Assembly (NCBI RefSeq): GCF_003096415.1
Contig: NZ_QEKH01000040.1
Coordinates: 1-37,968, forward strand
Origin: Victivallis vadensis
GTDB lineage: Bacteria > Verrucomicrobiota > Lentisphaeria > Victivallales > Victivallaceae
DNA: 37,968 bases
Reading direction: 5' to 3'
Positions 10,801 to 36,120 of the stretch are shown in pieces. The translations under genes were made by a program, and so were the position numbers. Below the pieces are notes generated by a model. That model was not told the DNA's origin. It was given only the letters and a program-made list of their open reading frames with translations, and did no database searches. Position 1 is the stretch's first letter. Each line of letters opens with the position of its first letter.

Positions 10801-11762
10801 AGCGCGGCATCCGGACCGAACCGGCGAAGCTGCGGCGGGCGTTCACGCCGGACGACAGGATCGGGGAGCTTCTGCCGCTGAACCTGCTGCGGTTCCGCGA
10901 CGAACTCGCCTCCAACCGGATCGTCTCGGGCAAGCCGGGCGACGAAATCATGGGTAACGGCATGTTCCTGTTCCGGCCGGAATCAGAGGAACTCTACTGC
11001 CAGCTCGCGCCGGAACTGCTGGAAGGCCGTTACGCGGACGATCCGGACCGCAGGGAAGGCGTGGCAATTTCAGTGGTCCGGCTCAAACAGCTCGCCGCCC
11101 GGCTCAAGACCCTCGGCGGCGAGGCTCCCGCGCCGGGAACGACCGAACGGCTGCTGAAAGTCCGGCGCGGCGCGGCCTACCAGAACCTCGACAGCTGGAC
11201 CGTATTCGGTCCCTTCTACGCCAAGACCAACGATGCGGCCAAGGCGCTGGAGAAGGAGTATCCGGGCCAGAAGGCGGCGCTGGCGGGCGACACCAATCCG
11301 AACATCACCTATCCGACCGGAGACGGCCGCACACTGGACTTCCGCACCACCGTTTCCGCCGGGCCGGACGGCTTCGTGGACCTCGGCCGCATTCTGAAAC
11401 CGGCCGGGCTGGACGCGGTCGCATTTGCGGTCAAGGAGATCGAATCGCCGGTCGAGCGGCGGGCGATGCTCCGCTTCGGCGCGGATTATTTCTTCCGCAT
11501 CTATGTGAACGGCAAGCCGGTTTACGAGCAGAGCACCAACCACTCTTCGCCGAAACCGAACCAGTTCAAGGTGCGCGTGAAACTGAAGAAGGGCGTCAAC
11601 GTGATTGTCGTCAAACTGATGTGCGGCAGCAAGGGCTTCGGCTTCTGGGCCAACCTCTCCGAACCGGAGGGCGAAGGGGAAGTCGCCGAACCTGCCGCCA
11701 AAGAGCTGTTGTATGATCCCAATATCAAAATAAGGAGTCCCTATGAGTATCATTACTGGTAA
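7815..11762 (+). CDS. Secreted GH2-like glycoside hydrolase, multidomain
   Basis: This 1315-residue protein begins with a signal peptide (MMKKLLFTALAALTAAGLSA). The frame is open from 7602, but ATG 7815 with GGAAGGA upstream is the sensible start. The order is a jelly-roll sugar-binding domain (about 60-190), an Ig-like domain (about 210-300) and a TIM-barrel (about 310-640) of glycoside hydrolase family 2 type. A C-terminal region follows, ending in a beta-sandwich (about 1130-1300, from SWTVFGPFYAK). E534 in LLTEYA is the likely nucleophile. The usual acid/base Glu of the WSLGNES motif is replaced: the sequence reads WCLSMNS, with Asn427 in that place. It may be inactive or use another residue. 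The last 20 bp overlap the next gene. Confidence 0.85.
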   Translation: MMKKLLFTALAALTAAGLSAAERLEIPPRFQAQPATSANQPPKADAWSTNRVTTLGHALPPAGAGWKRADAKKIHNQYLKREFEVPAGWNSGRLSLDFERINGNAVIFINGKKVGERLGPYGEIDITGFAVPGEKNELLIFNTRNYTDVSRTFENDPLRYTARGPKALYGAVPMERWAFGVDAPVWLVHRPDPAAIAAAWSDTSFRKKTVTMHAELDARQPVRDAKLQVEIFDADGKKVLEFAREGLTLKPGIQNVETSAPWANPRLWELDGGYVYTAKLTLADSSGKVIDRESFPFGFREVWTEGRNLMLNGHKARFRVEWSSFGLNENSVSYFKLLGRNMIYFQSNPSGWWRDWGGEVFNFPQETLDLCDREGIAVLLPVPTVNFGRERLLNDPVMKKQYKEETEAFMRRYRNHPSILAWCLSMNSFNPKDAIHPPTMGKRSDYRHVQADVLENAAKLVKSYDPTRLAYSHADGNLTDLATGNCYPNFAPIQEAEDWPEIWSKEGDMPWWACEFAAVYDGSYFKGKQFLLTEYAAIMLGPEAYKLETDKQLEETVRLGLNNRGHGQDMRHVAQYTPLYYEVQKRYVEAMDRAWRTYGVLGWHYFNFHLGYGDPPETKGYKPFARYSVMTRPVTGRPDWANPQFDYYAKNMQPLLAYVAGYPDHTDKTHSFYAGETVEKQLAAVWDGPGDLKLTGKWELLDAQGNAVLSGKLGGLDLKAGDIKFEPVRFTAPAVARRSEYHLKLTLDGWKDKPLVDTFALEIFPKTEPVGTARAYRLYDPQNRSGWVKELVPDVKPLASGEKPGVNDVVIFGRESLKVGDKLPFTADDIRNGLKVVFLEQMPEVWEAMGLRNYEAAPRQVFPTMKQLNLREADLRDWRGKATLLPEFKAARAYDVPVAPKTSNRGVVASTVMEIPQAVGFLPLLACEFDMNYSPLLEYRDGKGGILYSSLDFTGRAGKDPAATELAAWMLKRIGAETAPRKTKVFLNLPQEELAKRGIRTEPAKLRRAFTPDDRIGELLPLNLLRFRDELASNRIVSGKPGDEIMGNGMFLFRPESEELYCQLAPELLEGRYADDPDRREGVAISVVRLKQLAARLKTLGGEAPAPGTTERLLKVRRGAAYQNLDSWTVFGPFYAKTNDAAKALEKEYPGQKAALAGDTNPNITYPTGDGRTLDFRTTVSAGPDGFVDLGRILKPAGLDAVAFAVKEIESPVERRAMLRFGADYFFRIYVNGKPVYEQSTNHSSPKPNQFKVRVKLKKGVNVIVVKLMCGSKGFGFWANLSEPEGEGEVAEPAAKELLYDPNIKIRSPYEYHYW

Positions 11763-12414
11763 ATCACTGGCCGCGGCGCTGGCCGCCCTCGCTGTCGCCG
11801 CCGGAGTGCAGGCACAGGAGAAGGTGCTTTATTCGGAGAACTTCGAGGAAGCGATTCCCGGCCAGACCCCGAAGAAATGGACTAAAGTCTGGGGAAGTCC
11901 CGGCAGCGACATCTTCGCCGTGACCAATGAAAAGTCCGCCGGGGGCGACAATGCGCTGCTGCTGACGCGCGGCGACAATCAGGGCCAGTGGGGCTTCGGC
12001 GTCGCGTTTCCGCACGTGGACAGGGGAACCGTCGAAATCTCGTTCAACCTGCTGCTGGAAGGTCCCGGCAACCAGGCCTGTCTCGGTTTTGAAATCCGCA
12101 ACAACACGCCGGGACGGCTGATCTTCGGCAGCGCGACGGTACAGGATTTCAAAATCCGCAACTCGCGGCGCAAACAGGTTTTCAGCCTGACCGGCGATAC
12201 CTGGTACAAGCTGAAATTCACGATCCCCGCCTCCAAAGCGGACGGCGAACAGAGCAGATTTGAAATCACCGACATCAAAACCGGCCAGTCGGCGACGATG
12301 GAATCTCCGATCAAAGAGTATCCGAACAAGCTCGGTCTGCTCTGCATCAACACCCTGCCCGGCAAGAACAACTTCAAAGCTTTCATCGACGACGTGAAAG
12401 TGACGGTGAAGTAG
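11743..12414 (+). CDS. Secreted lectin-like jelly-roll protein
   Basis: This 223-residue protein has a signal peptide (residues 1-23, ending VQAQ). A single beta-sandwich follows that resembles concanavalin/laminin-G-like or family-16-type carbohydrate-binding modules: YSENFEEAIPGQTPKKW near the start, a central GTVEISFNLLL, and a C-terminal AFIDDVKVTVK strand typical of this fold. No catalytic residues are apparent. It starts inside the last codons of the giant glycosidase gene (20-bp overlap), so translation is probably coupled. It likely binds the same glycan. The structured repeat begins 33 bp after its stop. Confidence 0.82.
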   Translation: MSIITGKSLAAALAALAVAAGVQAQEKVLYSENFEEAIPGQTPKKWTKVWGSPGSDIFAVTNEKSAGGDNALLLTRGDNQGQWGFGVAFPHVDRGTVEISFNLLLEGPGNQACLGFEIRNNTPGRLIFGSATVQDFKIRNSRRKQVFSLTGDTWYKLKFTIPASKADGEQSRFEITDIKTGQSATMESPIKEYPNKLGLLCINTLPGKNNFKAFIDDVKVTVK

Positions 12415-12447
12415 GAATACCTCCGGCGGCCTCCCCTCGTTGTGGAG

Positions 12448-12774
12448 TGCCTCCGGCGGCCGGTGGCGCTTCGCCCCCCGGTCCCCCCGACCGGCAAGGT
12501 GCCGGTGCCGAGTGCGGTTTTGAGATTTTTGCTGTGCAAAAATCTCAAAACCGGGGGTACTATCTATCACTCTATTGGCTCTTTCGGCAATACCTGCCAC
12601 CGGGTGCTACCCGGTCTGGGTCAAGGGGCGAAGCGCCCTTGTCGTCGAAGACACTTGTGCGCGCAGCGCCCAGCTACCGGTGCCTGATTGAAAATCAGGC
12701 CGCGTAGCGCACAAGGTCTGCTTGCCCTATCGGGCAGCAGACCCGCCTGCCGCGAAGGCGGTATGGCTTCTCCC
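12448..12774 (+). repeat. Structured intergenic repeat, copy A
   Basis: About 327 bp, homologous along its whole length to 14061-14386 in the same orientation. It is a chain of hairpins. They include ACCGGC/GCCGGT (12490-12506), a perfect 18-bp stem with 3-nt loop (12515-12553), CTTGTGCGC/GCGCACAAG (12654-12662 with 12707-12715) enclosing GCCTGATT/AATCAGGC (12682-12700), and GGTCTGC/GCAGACC (12715-12743). Several stems differ from copy B but keep pairing. The first bases (CCTCCGGCGGCC) are also present 29 bp upstream at 12420. Short open frames in both copies are not gene-like. It lies between the jelly-roll and SGNH genes. Confidence 0.8.
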
Positions 12775-12816
12775 GGTGAAACGCTGTCGGCAATGCGATT
12801 ATTTTTGTTTTTTCGC

Positions 12817-12844
12817 TTGCAGTTTCCGGTCCGCCGCATATCTT
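12817..12844 (+). promoter_or_regulatory. Probable promoter of the SGNH gene
   Basis: TTGCAG (12817-12822) and TATCTT (12839-12844) are 16 bp apart, preceded by an AT-rich tract (about 12799-12813) that could act as an UP element. It lies just beyond repeat A and 32 bp before the start codon. Confidence 0.5.
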
Positions 12845-12876
12845 AAATACAGGGAAAATCAACAATCAGGTTCAAG

Positions 12877-14055
12877 ATGATCGGTAAAAACATTCTGCTG
12901 GCAGCGGCGCTTTGCGCGGGGGAGATGAGCATGGCAATTCAATTCGATGGAACGCTTACGGACAAGCTCCCCGGCTGGAGCTTCAAGGCTTCCAAGCCGA
13001 AAGACGGACTGGTTTACAATGAATTTGAAGGCTACTACCCAGACAAGGGCGGCAAGCTCAGTTCCGCGCCGATCAGGATCGGGGAACGCCCCTCCGGCAG
13101 TTTCTACCGGGTCAGGTTCGACGCGAAAGCCCCGGAACGCAGTTACTGGGGCGTCGACTTCTTCGATGCTTCGGGTAAACTGCTGCCGGATTATTACGGC
13201 GTGATCCATCCGGGCGACCGGGCCGGGTATGAATTCATCATCTACGCGATGGGAAAAGTCGATTCGATGCGGGTTTTCTTCCAGTCCAACCGCGGCATCG
13301 AGGCGTGGAACCTGTCGGTCGAACCCGCCACTCCCGAAGAGGCGGCCCGCTGGTGCGACGAATTGTACGCGACGCTCCCGCCGATCGACTTCAAAGCTGC
13401 CGCCGATTCGTTTCAAAAACTGCCGCGCACGGCGGAGGCGCTGCGCACCGGCAAGCCGTGGCGGGTGGTGTTTCTCGGCGACAGCATCATGCAGGACGCC
13501 TTCCACTCCCAGTTTGAATCGCTGGTGAAGCGGGAGTTCCCGAAGTCGAATCTGGACTATATCATCTCGATGCGCGGTTCCACCGGCTGCTGGTTCTACC
13601 GCAAGCCGGAAAACTTCCAGAGCTACGCCGCCGCGATGAAGCCGGATCTGCTGGTCATCGGCGGCATCTCCAACTATCAGGGCAAAGACAAAGCCGCGGA
13701 CACCGCCGCGATCCTCGAAGTCGCGGAGCGGGCGCGAAAGGAACTCGGCTGCGAAGTGCTGCTGCTGACCGGTGCGCTGAGCATCGACACGCGCGGCAAG
13801 GAGACCGCGCCGCGCAAGTGGGCGCTGGAGGCCGACAAGGAGGTGCAGAAAATGAATGACTTTGAGCGCCTGTACTCCGGTGCGGCGAAGCTGGACATCC
13901 CGGTCTGGGATATGACGACGCCATGCTACAACTGGCTGTACGCGAGCGGCAAACCGTATGAATTCCACAGTCGCGACTACGTCCACTCCGGCGAACGCGG
14001 CAAACAGATCATCGGCCGCGTGCTCTTCGAGTACTTCCGGACGGCGCAGCCGTAA
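12877..14055 (+). CDS. Secreted SGNH/GDSL hydrolase with N-terminal beta domain
   Basis: This 392-residue protein has an N-terminal signal-like segment (MIGKNILLAAALCAGEMSMA). A beta-rich domain (about 22-145) resembles a carbohydrate-binding module, followed by an SGNH hydrolase domain (about 190-390). Block I is FLGDSIMQD with the nucleophile Ser203. A Gly block (RGSTGCW) and an Asn block (VIGGISNYQ) follow. Block V is D367-Y-V-H370, the catalytic DxxH. This is the fold of carbohydrate acetyl-esterases (CE2/CE3-like), so removing acyl groups from glycans is likely but inferred. It is flanked on both sides by the structured repeats and belongs to the glycan cluster. Confidence 0.87.
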   Translation: MIGKNILLAAALCAGEMSMAIQFDGTLTDKLPGWSFKASKPKDGLVYNEFEGYYPDKGGKLSSAPIRIGERPSGSFYRVRFDAKAPERSYWGVDFFDASGKLLPDYYGVIHPGDRAGYEFIIYAMGKVDSMRVFFQSNRGIEAWNLSVEPATPEEAARWCDELYATLPPIDFKAAADSFQKLPRTAEALRTGKPWRVVFLGDSIMQDAFHSQFESLVKREFPKSNLDYIISMRGSTGCWFYRKPENFQSYAAAMKPDLLVIGGISNYQGKDKAADTAAILEVAERARKELGCEVLLLTGALSIDTRGKETAPRKWALEADKEVQKMNDFERLYSGAAKLDIPVWDMTTPCYNWLYASGKPYEFHSRDYVHSGERGKQIIGRVLFEYFRTAQP

Positions 14056-14060
14056 GGGGA

Positions 14061-14386
14061 TGCCTCCGGCGGCCCGGGGCGCTTCGCCCCCGGGCCCCCC
14101 GACCGGGTAGCACCCGGTGGCGGGTACGGTTTTGAATTTTTACTGCGTAAAAATTACAAAACCGGGGTTATTATCTATCAGTTTATCAGCTCTATCGGCG
14201 GTACTCCGCCCCGGCACGTTGCCGGTCGGAGTCAAGGGGCGAAGCGCCCTTGCCACCGGAGGTTATTTGTGCGCTACTGTGCCCAGCTACCGGAGCCTGA
14301 TTGTAAATCAGGCCGCGTAGCGCACAAGGTCTGCCGCCCGACAGGACGGGCAGACCCGCCTGCCTTTAAAATGGCAGGCTTTCCCC
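14061..14386 (+). repeat. Structured intergenic repeat, copy B
   Basis: Homologous to copy A at 12448-12774, same orientation, beginning 6 bp after the SGNH stop codon. Matching hairpins are ACCGGG/CCCGGT (14102-14118), CGGTTTTG...(14127-14143) with 14147-14164, TTGTGCGCTAC/GTAGCGCACAA (11 bp, 14267-14277 with 14317-14327), GCCTGATT/AATCAGGC (14295-14313), and a final GCCTGCC/TGGCAGGC-type stem near 14359-14380. CTCCGGCGGCC near its start (14064) recurs as TTCCGGCGGCC at about 14397, so the unit may be flanked by short direct repeats. The 65 bp after it lead to the ribosome site of the next gene. Confidence 0.8.
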
Positions 14387-14451
14387 TGCGACCAGCTTCC
14401 GGCGGCCGATGGGGGAGAGGATTTTGCAAACAGGTATATTCAGGAGTTTTT

Positions 14452-16875
14452 ATGCGTTATCTTTTTGACCGGTCGGAAGCGATTGAACTGGAATGCGATG
14501 CGGTGATCCGCCGCCATCCGTCGCTGTCGGACGGGGCGGAGGTCATCCGGGCCCGGGCGGGCGAAACGGTGCCGCCGCTGGCCCCGGGCCACTACCTGAT
14601 CTCCGAAACCACCGCTCCCGGCGAGGAACGGGTGCGCTACCTCGGAGTGGCGGGCAGGGGGTATACCGTGATGCAGTTGACGGTCGGGAGCTTCACATCG
14701 GATACGTTCGACGCGGTGGTTCACGCGAACCGGGTGCCGGTCAACTATTATGTGAACCTCGGGCAGGTGAACGACTCCACATTCCGCGGCTACGAGCAGG
14801 ATTACGGCGACGCGGTCTATCCGCATCTGATGCCCAACAGCCTGTCGCCGGTCGATCCGGCTTTCGCCTGCCACGACGCGAACTGGGATTCGCTGGATGC
14901 GGAGACGATCGAAACCCGGCTCCGGGCGCTGGACGGCTTCTGGCGGGAGCGCGGCTTTGCCCCGCTGCACGGCATTGCGACCTATACACCCTCCAACTCG
15001 CTGGTCGCCGCGATGAAGCGGCTCGGCTGGAGGGTGCTGCATTCGGTCGTGCCGGAGCAGAACTGGTCCGACGGGCGCTGGGCGATCAATCACTGGGGAA
15101 TGCCGAACCAGCCGTTCTACGTCAGCGGCGAAGATTTCCGCAAGCCGGCTGAACGCGGCGAAAACAATGTGATCGCGATGAGCATGAACTCCTACCATCT
15201 GTATATGCCGCATGTGACCCACTGGGGGGATAATGTGCTGTCGCCGTCGCACTTCCTGCGCTGGCACCGCACCGTGGAATCCGGCCCGGAACCGCTGCGG
15301 TTCGGCAATTTCCTGCGCGACTATCTGGCGGCGGCGGAGGGGCGGGAGGAGCCGTTCTTTCTGATCGCCGGTTTCGAGTTCGGCCGGACCTTCGGCGTGC
15401 GTTCCATGACGAAGCACAACCGGCGCGGGCTGGAACTGGTGCTGGAAGCCGCGAAACGGCATCCGGTGGTCTTTGCGACCGGGCGCGACGTCGCGCTGTA
15501 CTATGAAAGACACCAACTCGCCCAGCCGGAGGCTGTGTTCACCCAGCGGGACTATCTCGCCGGAACCCGGATCATGGACAAGCCGGTCAACTCCGGCCCG
15601 TCGATCGGGATGGAGATGCACGCCTACAAGGCGGTGTTCGCCCATCTGGAGCCGCTGCCCTTCTATCACTACGACTATCTGGAGCCGTGGCACTACCGCG
15701 CTGACGACACCGCCGTGCCGCGCGATTATGTGGAAAGCGACCGGGCGGCGGTGGAGGTGCGGCGTTCCGGGGATGTCCTGACGCTCCGGGCGGCAAAGCC
15801 GCTGGAACGGGCGGTACCGGTGGCGGTGTGGGACGGCGAAATCGCCGGGGATCGTCCGGGACGGGTGTTTCAGCCGCCGCAGTTGGATGACGGCCGGACG
15901 CATACGGTGCTGGAGCTGCCCGTCGGCTGGCACGGGGAGTGCGTGCTGGCGGTACGGAATGTTTCGGAGCCGCCGGCCGCCGAATTTGCCGGATCGGATC
16001 ATCCGGCATGGCGGGTGCAGCGGATCGGGGGACACTGTTATTTGTACCTCGATTTCCCGGCCACGCGCCCCTTTGAAATCGACTGGCAGGCTCCGGCGGC
16101 GTGCCGGATCGACGCGCCCGACCGGGTGCTCGGCGGTTTCGCGGCGGGCGAAAGCGTCCGGCTTGCCTTCAACGCGCGGCGGCTCTGGTATCGGTTTCAC
16201 GGCCTTGCGCCGGAGGCGATCCGCCCCGGCGGTGACGCGATGCGGAAGCTCTCCTCCGAACAACGGGAGTCGGAACGCTTTTTCGCGGAGGCGCGCCGCG
16301 ACCTGCCGCGGGACCGGCGCGAGCTTGACGAATGGTTCGCCGCGCAGCTTCCCGCCGGCGAACACGTGGAGCTGGAGCTGGACTGCTTCGGCGACAATGT
16401 ATTCGGGGAACGCAGCCGCGCCAGACCGTTCGATCGGATCGTGCGGCGCGGGAAGGCGGCGCTCCGGGCGGAGGAACTCTCCGACGGCGGGATTTCGCTG
16501 GGGCACGGGCGTTCGTTCTGGGTGCATCCGCGCTCGCTTCACTTTGAAATCGCCGGACTGGAGACGCTGGCGAGTGCCGACGGGCGGTTTACGCTGACTT
16601 TGTTCACCCGGACTCCGAAAGAGGAGGCGAAGCCCTTCCGCTACCGGCTGCGGATTCAGCACCTCGGCAAGCCGGTTGCGGAGTTCCCGGCGTGGGTCTG
16701 TCCATATGACTGTTCGGAAGGGGCGGTCCTGCAGGTGCGGCTGCCGCTTGATGCGTTCCCGGACGGTGTCGCCGACTGCCATCTGGCCGCCGACCAGCGC
16801 GGCGTGCTGGACGACTGGTACCGGGAGGACGGTTTCATTGCCGCACTGGAACGGCTTGCCGTCACCTGCCGCTGA
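14452..16875 (+). CDS. Large uncharacterised protein, possible carbohydrate-active barrel
   Basis: This is an 807-residue protein whose family I do not recognise. ATG 14452 follows AGGAG; the frame is open further upstream, but that part lies in repeat B. There is no signal peptide, so it should be cytoplasmic, unlike its neighbours. Residues about 90-430 contain pieces that look like a polysaccharide-deacetylase/GH57-like barrel: FACHDANWDSLD, PLHGIATYTPSNSLVAAMK, LGWRVLHSVVPEQNW, and later FLIAGFEFGRTFG and MEMHAYKAVF. The C-terminal half is beta-rich. It ends the glycan cluster and may process imported oligosaccharide. Both the fold and role are inference. Confidence 0.82.
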   Translation: MRYLFDRSEAIELECDAVIRRHPSLSDGAEVIRARAGETVPPLAPGHYLISETTAPGEERVRYLGVAGRGYTVMQLTVGSFTSDTFDAVVHANRVPVNYYVNLGQVNDSTFRGYEQDYGDAVYPHLMPNSLSPVDPAFACHDANWDSLDAETIETRLRALDGFWRERGFAPLHGIATYTPSNSLVAAMKRLGWRVLHSVVPEQNWSDGRWAINHWGMPNQPFYVSGEDFRKPAERGENNVIAMSMNSYHLYMPHVTHWGDNVLSPSHFLRWHRTVESGPEPLRFGNFLRDYLAAAEGREEPFFLIAGFEFGRTFGVRSMTKHNRRGLELVLEAAKRHPVVFATGRDVALYYERHQLAQPEAVFTQRDYLAGTRIMDKPVNSGPSIGMEMHAYKAVFAHLEPLPFYHYDYLEPWHYRADDTAVPRDYVESDRAAVEVRRSGDVLTLRAAKPLERAVPVAVWDGEIAGDRPGRVFQPPQLDDGRTHTVLELPVGWHGECVLAVRNVSEPPAAEFAGSDHPAWRVQRIGGHCYLYLDFPATRPFEIDWQAPAACRIDAPDRVLGGFAAGESVRLAFNARRLWYRFHGLAPEAIRPGGDAMRKLSSEQRESERFFAEARRDLPRDRRELDEWFAAQLPAGEHVELELDCFGDNVFGERSRARPFDRIVRRGKAALRAEELSDGGISLGHGRSFWVHPRSLHFEIAGLETLASADGRFTLTLFTRTPKEEAKPFRYRLRIQHLGKPVAEFPAWVCPYDCSEGAVLQVRLPLDAFPDGVADCHLAADQRGVLDDWYREDGFIAALERLAVTCR

Positions 16876-33487: not shown

Positions 33488-33506
33488 GAATGCAGGAGGG
33501 CTTTTT
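33467..33506 (+). terminator. Terminator of the transporter-esterase operon
   Basis: A 9-bp stem GCCCTCCTG (33467-33475) with CAGGAGGGC (33493-33501), a 17-nt loop and TTTTT (33502-33506). The 3' arm is also the Shine-Dalgarno sequence of the next gene, so readthrough mRNA would hide that site while mRNA from the internal promoter would not. Confidence 0.7.
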
Positions 33507-33507
33507 C

Positions 33508-34188
33508 ATGTGGAAGCTGCGTCGATTCTGCCGTGTCGCCGCCGAATACCGCTGGTGGTATCTGCCGCTTTTTGCCGGGATCATCGCGCTGTTCATCCGG
33601 TGGCCGGAGCAGGGGCGGTATGGATATTTGTTTGAAGCATTCCGGTTTGTCCGGGGCGCTTGCCTGCTGGGCGCGCTGTCGGCGCTGGCCGGAATCTGCC
33701 TGGAATGGAGGAAGCGGGGCACCTATCTGGTTTATTTGCTCTGTTTTCTGGCGACGCTGATCGTGTCGAATCTGTCGGCTGAGTTGGCGCTGGAGGAACG
33801 TTTGCGCCGTCCGCTTCCTCCGGGAGCGGCATGTTGCGGCGGTTTGAAACAGCTCGGGCTTGCATTGCGGATGTATGCGCAGGATAACGATGGCTGGTTT
33901 CCGCCGGAGGATGGAGCCGCCGGATTGAATGAGCTGCTCCGGCAGGGCTGCCTGACGGATGCTTCGCTGTACGTCTGTCCCGGCGATTCCCGGCAGAAGC
34001 TCACTTCCGGGAAGCTGACCGAAGAGCATTGCAGCTATCTGTATTTCGGCGGCCTGCGCGCACTCGAATCAAGCCGGGAGGAGATTCTGGTTGCCGACAA
34101 ACCGGAAAACCACGGCGGGAAGTTTCGGCATCGGTTGCATGTCGGCGGGCATATTTCCACCCGGACGGAGGAGGACGATGGAAAATAA
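33508..34188 (+). CDS. Polytopic membrane protein with pseudopilin-like domain, copy 1
   Basis: This 226-residue protein has three membrane helices (about 14-33, 46-66, 69-88), then a domain like the C-terminal part of prepilin-like H-X9-DG proteins: CCGGLKQLGLALRMYAQDND, GWFPPEDGAAGLNELL, LYVCPGD. There is no prepilin leader. The final H-X-DG motif is degenerate (HGGKFRHRLHVGG). ATG 33508 is 7 nt after AGGAGGG; an ATG at 33490 is inside the hairpin. It is the first of five overlapping genes in a row and overlaps the next by 11 bp. The function is unknown. Confidence 0.82.
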   Translation: MWKLRRFCRVAAEYRWWYLPLFAGIIALFIRWPEQGRYGYLFEAFRFVRGACLLGALSALAGICLEWRKRGTYLVYLLCFLATLIVSNLSAELALEERLRRPLPPGAACCGGLKQLGLALRMYAQDNDGWFPPEDGAAGLNELLRQGCLTDASLYVCPGDSRQKLTSGKLTEEHCSYLYFGGLRALESSREEILVADKPENHGGKFRHRLHVGGHISTRTEEDDGK

Positions 34189-34861
34189 GGAACTGCGGTT
34201 GGAAGATAAATACTGGCTCGGTGTATTCCGCTGGAAGTTGGTTGTAGGGCTTTTTATTCTGTTGCTTATTGTAGCATTGGGTTCGGACGATGAGATAAGA
34301 CTTGTGATTCCGGCCCGGGCGATGAGTCCGTTGGTTTGGGGCTGTTTCTGCCTGATCGGGGCAATGGTTGCCGCTTTCCGCCGCCGGAGGTCCGGAGAAG
34401 AGGATTTCTGGGAACGGCATGGATGTGCTTTTTTGGTGAGTATGGTGGTTGGGACGGTTTTATTCGGTTTCTTCCTGTCCGGTCCCTGCGTTGCTTCTGA
34501 AAAAGCACGTTTGATCTCCTGCCGTGCCAATCTGCAACAAATTTGGAATGCATTGCAGGCGTATGCTTCCGATAATAAGAACTTTCTCCCGCCGGGAAAC
34601 GGAGCTACCGGATTGAATGAGTTGTTGAGGGGAGGATATTTGGCGGAACCGGTACTATTCCATTGTCCCGGCCGCTCAGGGTCTGCCGGGGAGTTTCAAG
34701 AGCTGACAGAAGAAAACTGTGATTATATCTACTATGGAGGTGGTGAGCAAAGCTACGACCGGAAAGGAATCCTGCTGATGGATAAACCCGGCAACCACCC
34801 GGAGCGGAAATATAACATACTTTACTATAACGGTGAGATTGAGAGTCGGGGTGGATGGTGA
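34178..34861 (+). CDS. Polytopic membrane protein with pseudopilin-like domain, copy 2
   Basis: This 227-residue paralogue of the previous gene has three helices (about 20-38, 48-66, 81-103) and the same C-terminal domain: SCRANLQQIWNALQAYASD, NFLPPGNGATGLNELLRGGY, CDYIYYGGG, LLMDKPGNHPERKYNILYYN-G. In H-X10-DG the Asp has become Asn here. A strong ribosome site (GGAGGAGG) precedes ATG 34178, which lies inside the end of copy 1. The overlaps in this array indicate coupled translation, hence similar amounts of each product. Function unknown. Confidence 0.82.
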   Translation: MENKELRLEDKYWLGVFRWKLVVGLFILLLIVALGSDDEIRLVIPARAMSPLVWGCFCLIGAMVAAFRRRRSGEEDFWERHGCAFLVSMVVGTVLFGFFLSGPCVASEKARLISCRANLQQIWNALQAYASDNKNFLPPGNGATGLNELLRGGYLAEPVLFHCPGRSGSAGEFQELTEENCDYIYYGGGEQSYDRKGILLMDKPGNHPERKYNILYYNGEIESRGGW

Positions 34862-35325
34862 AAAAACAAAAACGTCTGCTTCTCTGGTGCGTCATAATTC
34901 TGGCGTTGGTTGCAGGAGTAGCAATACTTTTGCCGCCGCTTTACACGGATTGCCGTTGTCGGCCCAAAAACGTAAGGTGCATGTCGAACTTGAAAATGAT
35001 TTACACGGCATTGCAGGTATATGCGTGGGATCATGATGGCTGGCTTCCGCCGGAGGATGGCGTCGGAGGGCTGAGTCGGCTGGTACAGGGCGGGTATCTG
35101 GATAATCTTTCCGTTTTCAACTGTCCGGTAACCGGAACGGTCTTCCCGGAGAGCCTGACGGATGAAACGTGTGATTATATCTATCGCGGAGGGGGCCGGC
35201 AGTCGGAGGGAAAAAGTATTGTGCTGATGGACAAGCCCGGCAATCATCCGGAAGGGAGGTGTAATATTTTTTACTCCGACGGTACGTCAGAATTTAACAT
35301 CAGGGATGTATCCGATGGCGAATAA
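34855..35325 (+). CDS. Single-helix protein with pseudopilin-like domain, copy 3
   Basis: A 156-residue paralogue with only one membrane helix (about 8-28), so the first two helices of copies 1 and 2 are missing. The domain is complete: RCMSNLKMIYTALQVYAWDH, GWLPPEDGVGGLSRLVQGGY, CDYIYRGGG, VLMDKPGNHPEG and then FYSDGT, giving H-X10-DG. ATG 34855 overlaps copy 2 by 7 bp; GTG 34858 is an alternative. Function unknown. Confidence 0.8.
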   Translation: MVKKQKRLLLWCVIILALVAGVAILLPPLYTDCRCRPKNVRCMSNLKMIYTALQVYAWDHDGWLPPEDGVGGLSRLVQGGYLDNLSVFNCPVTGTVFPESLTDETCDYIYRGGGRQSEGKSIVLMDKPGNHPEGRCNIFYSDGTSEFNIRDVSDGE

Positions 35326-35440
35326 TCCGGTTGTGATGGTAATGGATAAGCCGGGTAGCCATCCGGGGCGCACGTATTGTATCACCCGTTCCGATGGAAG
35401 TGTGCAGTGTGAGGAGCGGAAACGGAGGCAGGCGGAATGA
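35315..35440 (+). CDS. 41-residue remnant of the H-X10-DG domain, copy 4
   Basis: A short frame starting at ATG 35315, inside the end of copy 3 (11-bp overlap), and ending in an ATGA overlap with copy 5. The product keeps only the tail of the domain: VMVMDKPGSHPGRTYC and RSDG, again H-X10-DG spacing. It has no membrane helix. The tight overlaps on both sides suggest it is still translated and keeps the frames coupled. It could also be a decayed paralogue. Confidence 0.55.
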   Translation: MANNPVVMVMDKPGSHPGRTYCITRSDGSVQCEERKRRQAE

Positions 35441-36120
35441 GGCGGGAATTGTTCAGGCGGCTGGCGACTTGTCCATGGTGGTTCGCACTTGCGACTTTCC
35501 TGTTGACCGTCGGCGTCGGACTCCTGCCGCCTTTCGGCATCTGGGCGAGATGGCAGGAACGCGGATTGCTGTGCGCGCTGGGATGGTGCATCGCGGCGAT
35601 GATGGGAGCGTTGGTCTGGGCTGTTTTTCGCCGGAAGGAGTTCCGGTTCTGGCTGCGGCAGGCCGGATGGTTCTTCTCGATTCTCTGTTTATCCGTCCTG
35701 TTTCTGATCCTGATCCCGGAACCCGTCGGCAGGATTCGGCCCAAGGCCGCACTGATCGCCTGCCGTTCCAATCTCCGGCAGATTCACACGGCGCTGAAGC
35801 TCTACGCCGGAGATCATAACGGTTTTCTGCCGCCGGAAAATGGAGCCGCCGGGCTGAATTACCTGATACGCGGCGAATACCTGACGGATCGGGCGATTTA
35901 CGTCTGCCCGTGGCAGGGGAGCCGCCGCCATCCTCAAAAGGCGGAGTTGACCGAGGAGGAGTGCGGTTATATCTTTTACGGCGGCGGCAGATTGTCGGAA
36001 ATCTCCCGGTTGCCGCTGCTGATGGACAAGCCCGGCAACCATCCGAAGCAGATGTATAATGTTCTTTACACGGATGGCACGTATGAAAGCGTTACTCCAC
36101 GGGAGCGTTCTTTGTTCTGA
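35437..36120 (+). CDS. Polytopic membrane protein with pseudopilin-like domain, copy 5
   Basis: This 227-residue paralogue has three helices (about 14-34, 43-64, 72-92) and the full domain: ACRSNLRQIHTALKLYAGDH, GFLPPENGAAGLNYLIRGEY, CGYIFYGGG, LLMDKPGNHPKQMYNVLYTD-G, with intact H-X10-DG. It is the best-conserved copy and the last gene of the array. Its 3' end overlaps the convergent minus-strand gene at 36092 by 29 bp. Function unknown; I expect an inner-membrane location with the domain outside. Confidence 0.82.
   Translation: MRRELFRRLATCPWWFALATFLLTVGVGLLPPFGIWARWQERGLLCALGWCIAAMMGALVWAVFRRKEFRFWLRQAGWFFSILCLSVLFLILIPEPVGRIRPKAALIACRSNLRQIHTALKLYAGDHNGFLPPENGAAGLNYLIRGEYLTDRAIYVCPWQGSRRHPQKAELTEEECGYIFYGGGRLSEISRLPLLMDKPGNHPKQMYNVLYTDGTYESVTPRERSLF

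Follow-up and report, generated by a model that had tools for sequence, protein, structure and literature searches.

Mosaic palindromic repeats of about 330 bp located just past stop codons in Victivallis vadensis

What kind of element occurs twice in one run of co-directional genes, each time just past a stop codon and each time with stems that differ between the copies and still pair? The question is raised by two intervals, copy A (12448-12774) and copy B (14061-14386), in a stretch of 37,968 nucleotides of V. vadensis contig NZ_QEKH01000040.1, which was analysed as a whole and is called the window below.

Copies A and B and the anatomy of the element

The initial annotation, which described two copies in one orientation that align over their full length, was borne out: in a repeat search of the window, four repeat families (D3, D6, D8 and D9) link A to B at a constant spacing of ~1612. 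The same search gave three repeated stretches (D1, D2 and D5) shared within a diverged paralogous gene array at 33490-36120. Copies A and B belong to a co-directional gene run whose first gene encodes a glycoside hydrolase family 2 protein (Pfam, ORF list). According to the ORF list, the + strand gene upstream of copy A (11743-12414, 223 aa) ends with TAG at 12412-12414 and the one between the copies (12877-14055, + strand, 392 aa) with TAA at 14053-14055; neither has a Pfam match.

The proximity to stop codons that had been pointed out is seen in both cases. Copy B begins 5 nt past its TAA, with a GGGGA at 14056 directly adjoining the stop codon. For copy A the distance from the TAG is 33 nt, the interval being taken up by an additional, truncated copy of the element's 5' part (CCTCCGGCGGCC...GTGGAG, 12418-12447, + strand) that starts ~5 nt past the stop; a duplicated start of this kind also occurs at L003, L175 and L203. 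A search of the + strand from 12200 to 14600 gave no terminator-like site, so the two copies are probably situated within one transcription unit. For neither copy did we find a sigma-70-like promoter, and ARAGORN predicted no tRNA.

Both copies fold far more stably than dinucleotide shuffles (z of -7.25 for A and -10.5 for B). Rfam returned no match to either at the gathering score and chance-level hits alone at E up to 10, in keeping with the earlier remark that no named family fits. Since the structure goes far beyond the controls and no named family matches, it is right to describe the element as hairpin-based and as belonging to no named family.

The unit is non-coding, ~330 bp long and made of about eight ordered hairpins: a 5' anchor, slot 1, slot 2, the long hairpin of slot 3, a mostly unpaired linker, and slots 4, 5, 6, 7 and 8, with slot 6 consisting of an outer stem and an inner hairpin. 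All features given here are on the + strand. In copy A, which is near full length (repeat search, BLAST and covariance model), the anchor GCCTCCGGCGGC (12449-12460, from the anchor pattern search) is followed by slot 1 (12462-12481), whose core is the reverse complement of slot 5, by slot 2 in the variant CCGGCAAGGTGCCGG (12489-12510), and by slot 3 (12515-12553), whose loop is inverted in other copies. The linker (12554-12599) exists in two alternative sequences among copies and is of the TATCTAT type here. Downstream lie slot 4 (12600-12614, CCGGGTGCTACCCGG, exactly reverse-complementary to slot 2 in copy B), slot 5 (12622-12641, CAAGGGGCGAAGCGCCCTTG), the slot 6 stem with its inner hairpin (12655-12714), slot 7 (12715-12743, GGTCTGC...GCAGACC) and slot 8 (12744-12767).

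Copy B, when its GGGGA/TCCCC ends are included, spans 14056-14390 (sequence, covariance model) and begins at the stop codon. The same anchor GCCTCCGGCGGC is found at 14062-14073, slot 1 at 14076-14090, slot 2 in the variant CCGGGTAGCACCCGG at 14101-14124, slot 3 at 14126-14164, slot 4 (CCGGCACGTTGCCGG) at 14211-14225, slot 5 at 14233-14252, the slot 6 stem with its inner hairpin at 14267-14327 (covariance model), slot 7 at 14328-14356 and slot 8 at 14358-14379.

The first ~205 bases of the element form a palindrome of palindromes, in which slots 1 and 2 are the reverse complements of slots 5 and 4, respectively. The only conserved GTAG lies inside slot 6 helix 2 and is paired in ~90% of cells. 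Short, imperfect inverted sequences, GGGGA.(T)GCC and GGC.TTCCCC, are present at many element ends and missing at others; the ends are ragged and often run on into the start of the next unit. The slot 6 inner hairpin (12685-12703 and 14298-14316 in the window, with loops TTGAAAA and TTGTAAA) resembles an anticodon arm. ARAGORN gave no tRNA, the corresponding stem and loop of L070_2229 are quite different, and the likeness is probably due to chance.

Family size and placement in the genome

The source genome (G000; 5.2 Mb, 99.5% complete) holds far more copies than the pair from which the initial annotation started. A BLAST search with copy A returned 96 matches, inverted internal pieces included, the direct pieces being mostly 72-93% identical. 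After alignment of 34 near-full copies, covariance models were made for the 3' half (R1, 115 positions) and the 5' half (R2, 107 positions). R1 had 71 matches in the genome; R2 matches one and the same element on either strand, as a consequence of the palindrome of palindromes in its 5' ~205 bases. The 13-base 5' anchor GCCTCCGGCGGCC gave 96 hits, against 7 with the reversed pattern, and merging left 92 distinct anchors. The family thus numbers roughly 70-90 elements in this one genome.

Units can be arranged in tandem, as on contig C32, where about four copies follow one another at a spacing of 332 bp. Each slot is occupied by one of two to four alternative hairpins, which are exchanged between copies as blocks. 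With nine slot markers, the 34 near-full copies show ~33 distinct combinations, an approximate number because marker s6 was crudely scored.

At L188, L189 and L200 we noticed a second, related family (GGGGCTTTGCCCC..., ...GTGTTTTTCGGCATTGCCGAAAAACAC...), located just after stop codons in two of the three cases. At L073 (1973-4312), a gene for a lipoprotein-like protein of 180 aa, with a weak carboxypeptidase regulatory-like match, is tandemly triplicated, with breakpoints inside the element. The idea that the element carries this gene as cargo was dropped; a tandem duplication of the lipoprotein gene, with breakpoints in the element, accounts better for the locus.

The position relative to genes is very strict. 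Among the 54 leading anchors with a coding ORF ending within 100 nt upstream, 51 start no more than 25 nt past the stop (median 8.5 nt), as compared with 70 of 4000 random positions (1.75%) at the same loci that fall within 25 nt of a scoring sense stop; these distances rest on sense ORFs scored by a home-made codon model trained on this window. The orientation is sense to the upstream gene in all such cases. Copies lacking the first slots by 5' truncation (L018, L159, L171 and L179) still begin at the stop, and many remnants with internal deletions, as short as ~20-40 nt, are kept at the same post-stop position. As exceptions, the elements at L029 and L176 start right behind an intrinsic-terminator-like hairpin, and about seven anchors (L068, L188, L195, L198, L199, L203- and L180-) have no such ORF, some of them seemingly placed upstream of a gene on the opposite strand. 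A convergent gene pair at L159 (1286-1643) has one sense element past each stop, the two elements facing each other. The strict sense orientation and the stop adjacency could also be signs of a positively selected RNA function.

Paired changes, mobility and distribution

The stem differences between A and B reported at the outset are present: slot 2 differs as given above, and slot 3 pairs perfectly in A but has a bulge in B. The slot 2 change that had been quoted as compensatory is, however, the replacement of a whole hairpin, since slot 2 of B reproduces slot 4 of A exactly in reverse complement. Across the family, double-change cells far exceed those in shuffles (37 vs 8.3 and 28 vs 8.1), and the signal is lost with slid structures. 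Three findings that could have weakened the structural view (a family of only two copies, stems devoid of covariation, a match to a transposon end) were looked for, and none of them turned up.

The substitution pattern is not that of an RNA. Across 70 copies, one-step cells comprise 54 G·U (22 types) and 62 A·C (21 types), with p = 0.52, whereas the tRNAs of the same genome, used as a control, show 22 G·U and 0 A·C; a tolerance of G·U with avoidance of A·C was not found across these copies. Moreover, six slot 3 loop sequences are found in both orientations, each as such and as its exact reverse complement (47 copies). Template switching at hairpins can generate multi-base compensatory changes in a single event (PMC8794818), and arm homogenisation and spacer inversion are likewise described in PMC8604942. 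Judged from the sequences, the loop inversions and the reverse-complement copying from slot to slot are signatures of template switching at hairpins. Because this process explains loop inversions, hairpin swaps and the equality of G·U and A·C, the covariation, although real, is not on its own evidence of RNA function; the stem changes look like DNA copying across hairpins rather than RNA selection. The view that selection acts on structure therefore stands in one part, in that pairing is kept above controls in a hairpin-based element, and is weakened in the other: the step to selection on an RNA does not follow, given the G·U to A·C equality, the swaps and the inversions.

No gene for a Y1/RAYT transposase (Y1_Tnp, PF01797) was matched in G000, while 23 of the 41 genomes searched have one, and a RAYT/IS200 mobiliser was rejected on this ground. 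Target-site duplications were not found either: 10 of 40 junction pairs have a common 5-mer, against 10.8 expected from shuffles. The element nonetheless appears to spread within the genome, as we infer from its copy number and its absence elsewhere.

In the rest of the genus, no element was found past hisD (eight other species), pgi (seven) or fba (three close orthologs). Several of these orthologous 3' ends carry an ordinary terminator-like hairpin instead, and in G006 only 4 nt separate pgi from the next gene, where G000 has an element. Loss in the other species is possible, given that the comparison spans species at ~66-85% protein identity. Among 137 genomes of the order, R1 found nothing but weak hits in G005, on the strand opposite to the R2 hits of that genome. 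The relatives picked up by R2 are weaker; they occur in G005, G002 and G003 and in a small number of genera within the family and the order, and a sample of 388 from the phylum yielded none further away. The block that G005 shares is inverted within a different, longer element that follows stop codons more loosely; similarly built but different hairpin families lie near stops in G005, G031 and G097. Pattern scans of GTDB and viral contigs gave no hits, a zero that says little for the pattern that was an N too long for the G005 version. In the literature on Lentisphaerota, we found nothing specific to this repeat family. By these sequence comparisons, the family seems restricted essentially to V. 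vadensis, with only pieces recurring in the genus and family.

At three G005 loci (L045, L074 and L155), the sequence between tandem units looks like the copied 3' end of a gene, stop codon included (...ATGATGAAGTGA). In G002, G003 and G035 (L081, L082, L083 and L087), sister repeats lie immediately ahead of the leader-coding part of prepilin-like genes (FTLIELLVV...) or inside it, and because of this location they may be translated. Rickettsia palindromic elements are palindromic repeats comparable to these sister families at pilin-like genes; the V. vadensis family differs from them in being intergenic, at gene 3' ends.

Nature of the element and its possible consequences

On balance, the element is probably a palindromic repeat of mosaic build, ~330 bp long, non-coding and dispersed through the genome, which is similar to BIMEs and REPs and lies in the 3' UTR of the upstream gene. 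It shares with REPs and BIMEs a high copy number of extragenic palindromes (71 R1 matches; 96 anchor hits vs 7 reversed), a mosaic build with hairpin modules facing either way relative to one another (slot 1 as the reverse complement of slot 5, slot 2b as that of slot 4a) and a location at the 3' ends of genes; in E. coli, many REPs are found no more than 15 nt from a stop codon (PMC12306157). REP palindromes, however, are 20-40 bp long, as opposed to units of ~330 bp with eight ordered hairpins, and have an unpaired GTAG/CGTC tag at the palindrome end that is not found here; the V. vadensis genome has no RAYT gene, and its element is far stricter in stop adjacency and sense orientation. Since RAYT and the tagged short palindrome are both missing, the element is set apart from REP proper, though BIME-like in its working. 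GTAG/CGTC REP super-families are reported for Planctomycetes and Verrucomicrobia (O. terrae) of the PVC superphylum in the excerpted text of PMC3733652, where Lentisphaerota are not among the hosts described. These too are extragenic palindromes, but there the tag is unpaired at the hairpin foot, whereas the V. vadensis GTAG is paired in the slot 6 stem.

A genuine structured RNA, either a 3'-UTR regulator or a processed small RNA with its fold selected in each copy, would account for the highly stable folds, the covariation in excess of shuffles, the invariable sense orientation just past stops and the scant room for a terminator ahead of the element. We consider it unlikely in view of the 54:62 ratio of G·U to A·C (22:0 in tRNAs), the inverted loops and whole-hairpin swaps, the many deleted remnants that persist at the same position, the sister species devoid of the element and the lack of an Rfam match. 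Nor does a MITE-like non-autonomous transposon seem likely, in which an unrecognised transposase would target gene 3' ends or terminator-like hairpins and GGGGA/TCCCC would be remnants of inverted ends. Like MITEs, the copies are non-coding, dispersed and missing from orthologous sites, and many of their ends, though not all, have the short imperfect inverted sequences; their sites are always at gene 3' ends, two of them right behind terminator-like hairpins. Yet they lack target-site duplications and a recognised partner transposase (none of the Y1 family searched for occurs in G000), their ends are ragged and often enter the start of the next unit, and 5'-truncated copies begin at the stop codon all the same.

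Some of the same observations could tentatively be read as a new repeat class, actively delivered in sense to gene 3' ends, to the first bases past the stop or the terminator end, by transcription- or translation-linked insertion without RAYT or target duplication, and then diversified by template switching between nested palindromes; we regard this as possible but doubtful. Very unlikely, in our opinion, is that old 3'-UTR hairpin modules were rebuilt in place in each lineage by recombination and template switching, without transposition. The swapping of modules between copies and the differing families of similar build near stops in G005, G031 and G097 would suit such a process, but the orthologous hisD, fba and pgi 3' ends lack the element, often having an ordinary terminator-like hairpin, and the G000 copies have one recognisable ancestral order in common. 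As for integron recombination sites behind gene ends, attC sites would also be imperfect palindromes directly past stops and in sense; this identity is scarcely credible, being contradicted by the absence of a GTTRRRY or RYYYAAC core box from both A and B, and the copies follow ordinary chromosomal genes (hisD, pgi, fba) rather than cassette arrays.

If the element is a BIME-like repeat, as we favour, it would have spread as a non-autonomous, largely selfish sequence whose presence is tolerated, or of mild use, only at the 3' ends of genes. Its stems would owe both their origin and their continued pairing mainly to template switching during replication and to conversion between copies, not to base-pair-wise RNA selection. 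The element would be transcribed with the upstream gene, as part of its 3' UTR, because the gap between stop and element leaves almost no room for a terminator. By analogy with E. coli REPs, hairpins in the transcript would delay 3'-to-5' decay of the mRNA and/or reduce expression of the upstream gene. REPs of E. coli that are no more than 15 nt from a stop cause ribosome stalling and lower expression, according to PMC12306157 and a study cited there, and a consequence at the mRNA level like that of REPs near stop codons would be the likely one in V. vadensis as well.

Apparent compensatory changes, which are usually taken as proof of RNA function, would here be traceable to template switching of DNA, and the ~70 paralogous copies in a single genome may be used for calibrating covariation tests. 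The near-absolute sense placement a few bases past stops, without RAYT, raises the question of how REP-like repeats choose gene ends.
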